64,000 bases of DNA. Origin: Deuterostichococcus epilithicus. Its lineage: Eukaryota > Chlorophyta > Trebouxiophyceae > Prasiolales > Stichococcaceae. Under the pieces are notes generated by a model. That model had not been told where the DNA came from. It saw nothing but the letters and a program-made list of their open reading frames with translations, and made no database searches. The stretch's first letter is position 1. Each line of letters opens with the position of its first letter. The stretch spans positions 2,356,001 to 2,420,000 of the forward strand of contig JAVTLE010000003.1 in the NCBI GenBank assembly GCA_033439295.1, written 5' to 3'. Positions 2,212 through 63,998 of this stretch are shown one piece after another. Both the position numbers and the translations under genes were made by a program.

Positions 2212-5200
2212 ATGGCGGGACCGGGCGGCGACACTCCTGGGCAGGCGCACCTTGCTGCTGCTCAAAACCAGCGCGCAGCAGCCTCCTGTGCCTCTAGGGA
2301 TCTCGACGCCCTCTGCGACGCAAGCAGCCAGCTTCTGCTGCTGGCTGCAGGCGAGGCAGGCAGCGGCAGCGAAGACGGCGACGCCGGGGAGGGCAGCAGC
2401 GACGACGACGAAATCGACTACGAGCCAGAGATCGTGGAGGATGGCCGCAAGGGCATCAAGGTGGGACGTGCGGTCAACATTCACTTTATGCAACCTGAAC
2501 GTGGCGGCCCGCAGGAGGTCCCGCAGGAGGTCCCGTCGCACACCCTGGCGCCACCAGCATGACTGCATATGCGATGCCCCGTCTAGTCATGCTGACGTCC
2601 CTTGCACCCTTGCAGGCACTTGACCCTGAGGCGCTCGGCGGTCCGCAGGAGCTGCTGTCGTACATCCTGGCGCCGGCGGGGCTGCAGCCTTTCCTGGACG
2701 GCTGCTGGCAGCAGCGGCCGCTGCTGGTGTCGCGCCCGCACAGCCCGCGCTACTATGCGCCCTGGTTCAGCCACGCCGACATTGACGCGCTCCTCAAGTG
2801 GGTGGCCCTTGCGGGCATGGCTCGTGACACCACACACATACACATGCACATCGCAGGACTGCATGCACGCATGGCAAGGGCTTCACAGGGCGTGCCGCAC
2901 CCCTGGCGTCTGGCCGCTGCGGTGCAGCCCCGCTGCTGAGGTCAGCTTGTGTACACCCCAGGGTATCACCCCTCAGGTTTTGGCAAAATTGACGACCCAT
3001 TGCATGCCGGCGGCGTGCGCTCATGGACAGGTAGGCTGGGCCCAAGCCCTGCATGCCCACGGGGGCGCAGGACCAAAATGGGCGACCGGTCCTGGGGCGG
3101 ACCGCGTTCATCTGGACCTGCCCAAACCGCTCTAATACACACCAGTTTCCCGCCCTTGCCAAGAGCACCGGCGATGAACCTGCCACAGGGCCGGCAAGCT
3201 GCACCACACCCTGGGCGTGGACGTCACCAAGTACGTTGGCGGCGTGCGGTCGACGCTGCCGGGGCGTGGCGGCGACATGTTCGAGGCCGCGGACGCAGGT
3301 CACGTCTGGGCGGCCTTCGAGGATGGCTGCTCAGTGCGCGTGCTGCACCCGCAGCGCTGGTGCGACCCCCTGTGGAAGGTGCGGCTGCGATGGGTCGAGG
3401 CGCACACACGCGGATCGGCTCTTCTGCCCGCACATCGCTGCTCGCCCACGTCTGTAGCCCCATGCTAACGCCGCTGCTGCGGCGGGCGGCTCCAGAGCCT
3501 ACTGGGAAGGCTGCACCCGTACCTGTCATGCGCGTTTCACGACCTTATAGCGCCTGCTTCCACCCAAGAATCCAGAAAGGCGGTTGTCAGCCCATGCGTT
3601 GGTATAGGGTTTCAGAGCCTGGAAAGGAGAGCCAGCGCAAGTGCGCCTGCACATCTGCCTTCCAGCATCTTGATCCTGATGGTCGGCCGATGCAGCGGCC
3701 GGGGCTGGTCCTGAACAACAGGTGCTCCAAGCCCCACACGACGCCAAACTCCTACACAACACGCAGGTGCTGGGCACCCTGGAGCTGTTCTTCCGCACCG
3801 CCGTCGGCTGCAACTCGTACCTCACGCCGCCAGGCCGGCAGGGCTTTGCGCCGCACTCCGACGACATCGACGCCTTCATCCTGCAACTGGAGGGCAGCAA
3901 GCGGTGAGCTGCCTTGCCTTTTTCATGTCTGCCATCTGGCGGTCAATGCGGCATGTGCCTCCCAATGTAGCAGCCCACGTTGCTGTCTTGTTCTGCGCGT
4001 CACGGCGGCCTCTGTGTCATCAGGCAGGCAACAAGGGGACAGTGGTCGGCACCGCTGGTGCTTGTCGAGCTGTTTTGGTTTTGCAGAGTTGAAATCTGTA
4101 CGCGCCGGTAAGGCGGGGAAGAGATGCGGCCGCCGCAACGGCAGCTCCGACTGCAGTCCCGAGGCTTAACTTATGTCACTGACTTTGTGTTTTGCATCCG
4201 CTGCGCAGCTGGAAGGTGTATGCGCCACGGTCTGAAGAGGAGGTGCTGCGCCGCGACAGCAGCCCGGACTACAGCCGCGAGGACATCGGCGAGCCTGTGC
4301 TGGAGGTGGAGCTGCAGCCCGGGGTGAGTCATGGGGTTTGAGGGTTTAGGGTTCAACCCCACACTACAACGACGGACCGAGCGCTTTACCTTTTCTGCTG
4401 TACATTCCCTCTCGCGCATCGACGCGCACCGGTGCGGAAGGTGGTCGTCACACCGGACCCGCAGTCGGGCCGGGGGCTGAAGACTTGCCGGGGCATCTCC
4501 TCAAAGAACCCGAGCTTCCAGAGAACTGGCGCTGTCGCGCCCTGCTGGGCGCGTCGCCCTGGCTGGCCGCCCCTGGCCTCGCTGCCAGACCCTGCCAGCC
4601 CGCTGCATCCTCCCGCCGCCGCCTTGCACACGCGCTGCAGGGTCGAAGAGGTGCACAACATCCGGGGATCGTGGTCCGAGCGGCTGACAAGCCACGTCCT
4701 GTTTCCAGGACCTGCTGTACATGCCGCGCGGCGCCATCCACCAGGCGCAGGCGCTGCCGGACGAGCACTCACTGCACGTCACAATCTCCGTCAACCAGCA
4801 GCGCACTTGGGCCGACTTCCTGGCAGCAGGTTCGCCTTGATGCTGCCTTTGTGACTCTAGCTGCATGTCATGCCTGATTGGGACTGCTGAGCCGTCCCTG
4901 GAAGTGCAGGAACGGGCGGCGCAGCGGCTGGTCGAATCTAGGGCGGGGCGTCACAGCAAACTCGGCCCGGTGGCCTGCAGCAGATGTGCATCGACTCATT
5001 ACGCAGCACGTTGTATGTGCCGCAATCACGCTCCTGGCGGCTCTCGAAGGGTCGGCACAGGGAGTGTGCGCCGCTCTGCCAGACGGCAGGACACGAAACC
5101 AGGATGCACTCCCAGAGCCCTAAATCAATGCACCCTCGGCACGCCGCCCGCAGCCATCCCGGCGGCGCTGGAGGAGGCGGCCCAGGAGTGCGTGGCGCTG

Positions 5201-62800: not shown

Positions 62801-63998
62801 ACTGGGGCGCCCGGGACGGAGAGGGGCGTTTCGTGCTGCCGGCGGGCGTGCCCGCGGAGAGCAGCCAGCTGTCCACAGACGGGGCGTACCTGCTGGACAA
62901 CGGCCGCATCTTCCTGCTGTGGCTGGGCCACTCAGTGTCGCGCAGCTTCGTGGCGCAGGTGGGCGGGGTTTCTGTGCGGGAGCCCCTGCCGTTCGGCTGT
63001 CCTCCCTGCTGTGGCTGTGCCGTGCGGCCTCGCGCGACGCCGTGGCGGCGCAAGGCAGTTTTCAATTTTCCGGCAAACTTGTGCAAAGTCATTTGGGGGT
63101 GGGCTTCGTTCCGTCAGATCCCTTGCCGGACGGGCACGCCGGTGGGATGTCAAGGCGCCGGCACAGGACCGTGCGGCAGCGGCACGGGCGGGTTCTGCAG
63201 TGCCGCAATGCCCAACCTGTGCACGTCCTCGACACCGGGAGCTGCAGCTGCAGTGAGCGCACCGCAGCGACGCGTCGCCTTCCGACAGCTCTTCAGGGGT
63301 GCCACCTGTGCCCTCTACTGAGGTGTTGGCTTGGAGGCGGCCAAGATGCCGCACAGGGTGGAGCGGCTGCCGTTGGAGTGCGACTCGCACCAGGCCTGGA
63401 GCCTCCAGTCACAACCGCTCCAAGGCTCACCCGATGCCGTAATGCAGATCTTCGGGCTGGAGGCAGACAAGGTGCCGCACGAGGTGGAGCGGCTGCCGCT
63501 GGAGCCGGCGCAGGGCGGCTCCGACGTCTCCCGCCGCTTCAATGCGCTGCTCGGGTGCGCGGCCCCGCCCGTTGCCCTGCGCGACGCGCCGCCAGCTCCG
63601 CAGGCGCATCGCCGCGCATGAACCTGCTTTCCCCGAGCTCGGTTAGCAGACCGCGCAGCTCCCGTCGGTGGTCCCCCGGCCAGCGTCCGCTGCCCGCTCG
63701 GGCTGCTGCTGATGGAGCGCTGCACTCTGCGGCTGCTGCGCCCTCTGTTGCCCCTCCGAGGTCCAGGGCGCCCCGGGCATACATGCTCCGCAAAGCTCCG
63801 CTGACTGGCCCGTATGCTGCGCCGCACAGGGCGCTGCGGGCGGGACGGGCGATGCACGGCCAGGTGTGGGTGGTGCGGCAGGGGTCAGCGCTGGAGGCGC
63901 GGGTGGCGCCCTACCTGGTGGAGGACGGCGGCCCGGGCGGCCCCTCCTACCAGGACTGGCTGCTGCAGCTGCACAAGTCTGTGCTGACCGGCAAGTGA
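53817..63998 (+). CDS. SEC24: SEC24, COPII coat cargo-adaptor subunit
   Basis: Complete, 22 exons: 53817-53889, 54246-54380, 54529-54753, 54969-55097, 55310-55525, 55670-55934, 56090-56190, 56409-56632, 57197-57346, 57569-57722, 58066-58249, 58752-58909, 59373-59590, 59860-59950, 60200-60284, 60496-60599, 60982-61103, 61713-61975, 62246-62407, 62798-62958, 63448-63554, 63830-63998; about 1165 aa. A Pro/Gln/Gly-rich N-terminus of about 390 residues precedes a zinc finger ([12 protein letters not shown] ... CNVC). Next are the vWA-like trunk ([39 protein letters not shown]), the beta-sandwich, the helical part ([19 protein letters not shown]) and the gelsolin-like end ([18 protein letters not shown]). 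SEC24 pairs with SEC23 at ER exit sites and selects cargo. Exon 6 shows two frame changes in a GC-rich repeat. Intron 12 is GC-AG. Three introns hold ghost exon copies. Confidence 0.96.
56669..56850 (+). repeat. Two ghosts of SEC24 exon 8 3' end including donors
   Basis: Units 56669-56735 and 56784-56850 both resemble 56568-56633. Each starts TGCGA/TGCAAC-CC and ends CAG/GTGTG like the true donor. Peptides [19 protein letters not shown] (exon), [19 protein letters not shown] and [19 protein letters not shown]. Confidence 0.85.
58497..58690 (+). repeat. Two ghosts of SEC24 exon 12
   Basis: 58497-58560 encodes [20 protein letters not shown] and 58614-58690 encodes [15 protein letters not shown]. 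The true exon from 58752 encodes [18 protein letters not shown]. Both lie upstream in the same intron. Confidence 0.85.
63325..63380 (+). repeat. Ghost of SEC24 exon 21
   Basis: Encodes [16 protein letters not shown] against [16 protein letters not shown] in 63451-63504. GAGCGGCTGCCG is identical. Confidence 0.85.

Follow-up and report, generated by a model that had tools for sequence, protein, structure and literature searches.

Decayed copies of exon edges in introns of the green alga Deuterostichococcus epilithicus, probable remnants of short tandem duplications

The stretch of DNA considered here comprises 64,000 nucleotides from the green alga Deuterostichococcus epilithicus (assembly GCA_033439295.1, contig JAVTLE010000003.1, positions 2,356,001 to 2,420,000 of the forward strand), and is referred to in its whole length as the window. 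Seven of its genes (NO66, TAPT1, a helical-repeat gene, GT47, OGG1, a Nudix gene and SEC24) contain introns with short, decayed copies of the edges of neighbouring exons. These copies, termed ghosts, are real; the original prediction that described them is confirmed on this point by scans and alignments, and the observation now extends to other parts of the genome. The ghosts are probably the remnants of short tandem duplications in the same direction, mostly of about 80-175 bp, at exon-intron junctions. Their presence, orientation and spacing, their decay without coding constraint and, at several loci, head-to-tail units that include intron sequence were observed directly. The assembly has 46.8 Mb in 21 contigs, with a GC content of 0.63. 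The sample consists of the window and 17 loci of 10 kb elsewhere (234 kb); three further loci (L020-L022) were added later, giving 264 kb.

Gene models were predicted by a self-trained gene finder, and the exon and intron classes used throughout depend on these predictions; no usable long reading frames were found as a basis for a coding model. The splice signals learned are sharp (donor CAG|G(T/C)G, acceptor TGCAG|G). GC donors are frequent: in the predicted models of the window and L003-L022, 48 of the 340 introns whose neighbouring exons measure 45 bp or more begin with GC. The final models hold 696 predicted exons, many of them short and a quarter no longer than 33 bp. Pieces of the models in the window match known Pfam domains, namely JmjC_2 (NO66), DUF747 (TAPT1), Nodulin_N (PF25246; 5' part of the helical-repeat gene model), Exostosin_GT47 (GT47), OGG_N (OGG1), NUDIX (the Nudix gene) and Sec23/24 (SEC24).

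The ghosts listed here lie on the forward strand unless stated otherwise. The NO66-like gene contains three pairs, at 2.5, 4.1 and 5.3 kb. Its first ghost (2521..2552) corresponds to exon sequence at 2643-2674 (offset 122, 84 % identity); it partly overlaps a 12-bp repeat, is lost under masking, and was detected by the unmasked scan alone. The second (4131..4164) lies upstream of exon 4209-4323 and copies 4249-4282 at an offset of 118, and the third (5429..5458) lies downstream of exon 5154-5308 and copies 5271-5300 at an offset of 158. In the TAPT1-like gene, gapped alignment matches the ghost at 12740..12824 (ungapped core 12758-12809), which lies upstream of exon 12880-12993, to 12847-12935 at an offset of 113. 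Exon 24711-24860 of the helical-repeat gene has two upstream ghosts, at 24568..24633 (offset 138) and, more distant, at 24466..24506 (offset 254). The gene model calls a further copy, the ghost of exon 25675-25875 at 25496..25598 (offset 171), an exon, and the joined model has an in-frame stop there. GT47 is on the reverse strand, with a ghost at 33980..34047 upstream of exon 33710-33873 (copied part 33824-33891, offset 156). In OGG1, the ghost at 40027..40082 spans the acceptor region of exon 40136-40322 (copy 40111-40167, offset 85) and is likewise called exon. The Nudix ghost (45697..45757) lies downstream of exon 45421-45600 and copies 45550-45610 at an offset of 147.

SEC24 has copies adjoining seven exons, at 56.6, 58.7, 59.4, 59.9, 62.3, 62.9 and 63.5 kb. 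On the donor side of exon 56409-56632, ghost 1 (56667..56747) copies 56565-56645 at an offset of 102 and retains a CAG|GTGTGCG donor; ghost 2 (56775..56831) follows at 115 from ghost 1 and 217 from the exon, so that exon, ghost 1 and ghost 2 form a three-unit head-to-tail array. Upstream copies are found at 58441..58549 for exon 58752-58909 (copy 58710-58819, offset about 270), at 59234..59288 for exon 59373-59590 (offset 131), at 59744..59786 for exon 59860-59950 (offset 104), and at 63332..63378 for exon 63448-63603 (exon copy 63458-63504, offset 126, 87 % identity), the last being called exon by the gene model. Downstream copies are found at 62465..62525 for exon 62246-62407 (exon copy 62341-62401, offset 124) and at 63002..63047 for exon 62798-62958 (exon copy 62910-62955, offset 92). 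Two SEC24 introns had been thought to hold two copies each; this is correct for the intron with the ghosts at 56667 and 56775, and no second such intron was seen.

The main scan recorded ungapped similarity between all positions 25-499 bp apart, with repeats of period up to 24 masked, and the same scan at offsets of 3000-3474 served as a control. At a score of at least 27, the window gave 18 near-offset matches and the 17 other loci (170 kb) gave 70, with none at far offsets in either; at a score of at least 24 the near-offset counts were 24 and 92, against 1 and 3 far. These counts refer to matches rather than duplication events, and the 70 include a 342-bp array (L009) and a minisatellite (L013). 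In the unmasked window the contrast is obscured by low-complexity sequence, with 28 near against 16 far matches (offsets 5000-5469) at a score of at least 27, and 17 against 3 at 33 or more. In the 264 kb, 520 exons of at least 45 bp were also compared with their flanking introns, each over a length of up to 300 bp, which gave 966 exon-intron pairs. A local score of at least 24 was reached by 32 pairs, by none with reverse-complemented introns, and by 0.3 with GC- and length-matched introns of other loci, the control named in the original prediction. At the stricter cut of 26, 27 of the 520 exons pass (about 5 %).

The feature is genome-wide yet patchy. There are 46 clusters in 234 kb, or about one per 5 kb, and 48 in 264 kb once the later loci are included; the L013 minisatellite is left out of size and cluster statistics. 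L004 has six clusters per 10 kb; no cluster falls in L010, L011, L014, L016, L017 or L018. Over 26 bins of 10 kb the counts show mild overdispersion (variance/mean 1.64, p=0.023); the bins are the 17 loci, with L013 set to 0, six from the initial 60 kb of the window, and the three later loci (2, 0 and 0). The later 30 kb gave six near matches and no far ones. The earlier proposal of a genome-wide process, in which short duplications in the same direction subsequently decay, is supported.

Merging matches of score at least 25 yielded 95 pairs in the 234 kb. Four were dropped before classification (two in the L009 array and two unstranded intergenic pairs in L018). The remaining 91 comprise 55 exon/intron pairs, 23 pairs in which the gene model calls comparable parts of both copies exon, and 13 intron/intron pairs. 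Among the 55, the ghost lies upstream, on the acceptor side, in 34 and downstream, on the donor side, in 21; a few of the pairs include part of the L013 minisatellite, or have as their exon a call that is in fact a ghost. Downstream copies, originally put at two, are thus common. Orientation is almost uniform: at a score of at least 27 there are 88 direct matches against three inverted ones (two places), although the scan for inverted matches had an additional prefilter and could lose a few.

Spacing is restricted. For the 78 exon/intron and similar-fraction pairs, 53 offsets fall at 82-174 bp and 11 at 203-289, with eight below and six above. Offsets near 250 bp, originally reported once, belong to the class of 11, which in part arises from two array steps (102+115=217; 119+120=239). 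Offsets show no preference for multiples of three (14 of 55). Around the splice junction, similarity covers about 50 bp of exon and 10-30 bp of intron sequence. On the acceptor side, 22 of 34 alignments begin in intron sequence or no more than 4 bp from the junction, and 12 begin deeper in the exon. Introns with a ghost are longer than others (median 376 against 181 bp; 32 and 689 introns, p=1.2e-5). This supports in part the idea that duplications carrying splice sites lengthen introns, although a longer intron also offers more room for a ghost.

Head-to-tail units are seen at several loci. After gapped alignment, 19 of 58 pairs at offsets 80-180 show head-to-tail contact or overlap, at 12 places, one of them a minisatellite. 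Units could be aligned one by one, intron included, in SEC24 (exon, ghost, ghost) and in two arrays of L004. Between the SEC24 exon and ghost, identity is 0.81 in the intron part and 0.74 in the exon part, and between the two ghosts it is 0.74 and 0.69; the first L004 array gives 0.81 and 0.85. In one L004 array, two ghosts are 0.93 identical in the exon-derived part and 0.77 in the intron part. An apparent lack of insertions and deletions (indels) in ghosts proved to be an artefact of ungapped detection, since gapped alignment gives 136 gaps against 1302 mismatches in 58 pairs. L013:6438-6900 is a minisatellite with a period of 47-48 bp and up to 98 % identity across a predicted exon boundary. 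L009:1754-3171 is an array of 342-bp units, 99-100 % identical, largely inside a predicted coding stretch on the minus strand.

Ghosts decay free of coding constraint, and nothing points to a function. In 52 ghosts with at least six codons (679 codons), seven stops occur against 7.7 expected by within-pair shuffling, and mismatches at the three codon positions amount to 22, 20 and 27 %. Both results speak against the suggestion that the copies serve as a store of alternative exons. The same ghosts show a slight surplus of synonymous differences (98 against 80.8 +- 7.5), as change of the exon itself at synonymous sites would produce. In exact register, AG is kept in 10 of 33 acceptor-side ghosts and GT or GC in 8 of 21 donor-side ghosts; one row runs past the end of its locus, and one-base shifts would add a few to these counts. 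The Sec23_trunk domain aligns over residues 1-240 of 241 on a model that omits the ghosts at 58.4, 59.2 and 59.7 kb. Tandem exon duplication, as in mutually exclusive exons, also places a local exon copy in a flanking intron. Unlike that arrangement, the algal copies mostly contain an exon edge only, and the ghosts lack coding constraint.

Tandem duplication across a junction would leave a gene with a doubled acceptor or a doubled donor. Of the two boundaries, the one that adjoins the remainder of the exon would stay in use; the other unit, a piece of exon with a piece of intron, would be spliced out and decay as non-coding DNA, and the intron would gain one unit in length. Further rounds would produce three-unit arrays. 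Ghost sites are presumably ignored by splicing, and the primary lesion may be a duplication during repair or replication, such as the fill-in of a staggered break.

Several observations weigh against this explanation. In a neutral model, simulated tandem duplications with the sizes seen here were scattered randomly over the annotated sequence and evolved neutrally with indels, the exon part at a quarter of the rate; the age mixture was fitted to the observed scores. For 51 exon-spanning pairs, 19.6-25.2 intron-only and 5.5-13.0 intergenic pairs are then expected, and most of the ages obtained by fitting are old. At offsets 80-180, five intron/intron pairs are observed, of which four were judged to be ghost-to-ghost pairs inside exon-ghost arrays (L007 twice, L009 and L012), leaving L016:4009-4107 (offset 83). 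The scan of 234 kb gave no intergenic pair at these offsets; two in L018 lie at 187. A gapped blastn scan at offsets 80-180 gave 38 exon-involving against two intron-only pairs; at every cut-off it returned no matches at offsets below 80, which was taken as a limit of the method. The later 30 kb contain no pair at an offset of 80-180. Few copies look young: an identity of 90 % or more is found in just 3 of 78 pairs, fewer than duplication at a steady rate would lead one to expect, although the assembly does resolve the near-identical array in L009. The narrow range of sizes (82-174 bp) has no explanation so far.

The intron part of the units adds to these difficulties. With anchored alignment it does not exceed the 95th percentile of the null in 25 of 34 pairs; similarity is found in nine, two of them the L013 minisatellite, against 1.7 by chance, and the test fails once an indel shifts the register (by eye, L009:9583 and L004:2810). 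In a separate local test, that percentile is exceeded by 3 of 21 pairs on the acceptor side and by 3 of 16 on the donor side. The match profile on the intron side is at background, 0.25-0.27 at 20-60 bp from the junction, compared with 0.35-0.46 in an equal-rate simulation. Leaving the minisatellite aside, the most nearly identical copy is L023:1568 (95 % over 41 bp); by eye, its flanks are unrelated. Low-indel simulations lead one to expect intron-part similarity in most pairs, while a high intron indel rate lowers this expectation. The claim that the intron part of the units is non-homologous is weakened accordingly by the high-indel simulations and by the register shifts in the anchored test.

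Taken together, the shortage of intron-only pairs, the few young copies and the weak intron similarity leave room for duplication directed to boundaries or for conversion of ghosts by exons. It is conceivable, if not the likelier case, that exon edges are duplicated into neighbouring introns, or kept recognisable there, far more than intron sequence is. Equally tentative is the proposal that either duplication is directed to exon-intron boundaries or intact exons rewrite their own ghosts by local conversion. As a rival to plain junction duplication, preferential copying of exon ends, or repeated overwriting of the ghost by the intact exon through gene conversion, with selection preserving the exon alone and the intron part free to diverge, has an appreciable but minor chance of being correct. 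It would accommodate the five intron-only pairs (one outside arrays) where 20-25 are expected, the imbalance in the blastn scan, the background-level profile, the 25 pairs with undetectable intron parts, the scarcity of copies at 90 % identity or more, and the contrast between 0.93 and 0.77 in the L004 ghosts. The light-harvesting (LHC) paralogues L024 and L025 would fit exon-limited conversion, or else strong codon constraint. In the SEC24 and first L004 arrays, on the other hand, intron and exon parts show about equal similarity. With frequent indels in introns, the intron similarity to be expected drops much of the way to the observed level, and conversion over 50-bp blocks is itself conjectural.

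The other alternatives fare less well than junction duplication. If a boundary-crossing duplication brought a new intron, as in potato, the ghost would be a small exon still in use; the 23 pairs with both copies called exon and the splice dinucleotides kept in 10 of 33 and 8 of 21 ghosts are consistent with this, but the lack of coding constraint and the nearly end-to-end Sec23_trunk match without three SEC24 ghosts make it unlikely. Another alternative is filler DNA, templated by neighbouring sequence and inserted in the course of end joining; L007:6062 and L023:1568 look by eye like isolated blocks with unrelated spacers. It should yield both orientations, and since inverted copies are almost absent (3 against 88), it is very improbable. 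A 301-bp query, L006:9700-10000 (exon, spacer and ghost), matched only itself in the genome, so at least the spacer of this single query is not a common mobile element. Least credible of all is the creation of introns by duplication of an AGGT segment (the Rogers model), with the ghost as the intronised copy. The learned consensus does have AG|G at both intron ends, and a loose threshold of 50 % identity gives a slight excess (3 against 1.0 and 4 against 0.8 expected). The model requires an offset equal to the intron length together with matching flanks, and only 3 of 402 introns, all of low complexity, have such flanks at 60 % or more; for the introns tested it is largely refuted, including as the published route that the original prediction had considered.

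Comparable events are known from other systems. The account of a potato RdRp gene in PMC4974935 describes a direct duplication over the last part of an intron and the first part of the following exon, including acceptor and pyrimidine tract, which gave a new intron ready-made 3' signals; an 83-bp duplication inside an intron is also mentioned. The origin of longer introns and new splice sites is presented there as a long-standing question with few proven recent cases. As in the alga, the potato duplication is direct and crosses an intron-exon boundary; as described, it is one recent case that yielded a used new exon and a new intron, whereas the algal copies number dozens in 234 kb, are mostly decayed, apparently do not serve as exons and occur on the donor side too. 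In the alga, events of this kind occur genome-wide and are mostly visible as decay. The Rogers model, described in PMC3443670, a review that counts tandem duplication and break repair among seven mechanisms of intron gain, shares with the alga a short tandem duplication inside a gene that is tolerated because splicing removes one copy. It differs in that the segment duplicated in the alga sits at a splice site that was already present, with an offset other than the intron length. In the human genome, according to PMC8355091, short insertions are most often tandem duplications; the paper cites a model in which the two strands are nicked close to each other. Such products of staggered-break repair, cited there for humans and plants, are similarly short, direct and local, although the insertions treated are under 100 bp and the main algal range is 82-174 bp; the algal copies are too old for their breakpoints to be read. 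Among the matches listed by title, in which subscription literature is thinly covered, there was no genome-wide survey of decayed exon-edge copies in introns.

Should the sampled density hold, the genome would contain roughly 8,500-9,200 such places. If the sample is representative, they would amount to thousands of datable natural experiments on splice-site duplication. The copies illustrate one way in which introns can grow; the favouring of exon edges is without explanation so far, and the shortage of intron-only pairs constitutes a quantitative anomaly. If directed duplication or conversion were true, exon boundaries would be active sites of intron growth.

Some further observations concern paralogues and repeats. 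The light-harvesting genes L024 and L025 lie on different contigs; 16 of 762 exon bases differ between them, and their introns are largely unalignable. The protein read from L024 matches light-harvesting chains in the PDB (best E 5e-173), and the chlorophyll a/b-binding family has 39 exon-level matches in the genome. In the window, 36460-36730 is the sole strong local inverted repeat found, with arms of about 109 bp separated by about 53 bp. A direct pair at 27787-27837 and 28034-28084 (offset 247, 80 % identity) has both copies outside predicted exons.

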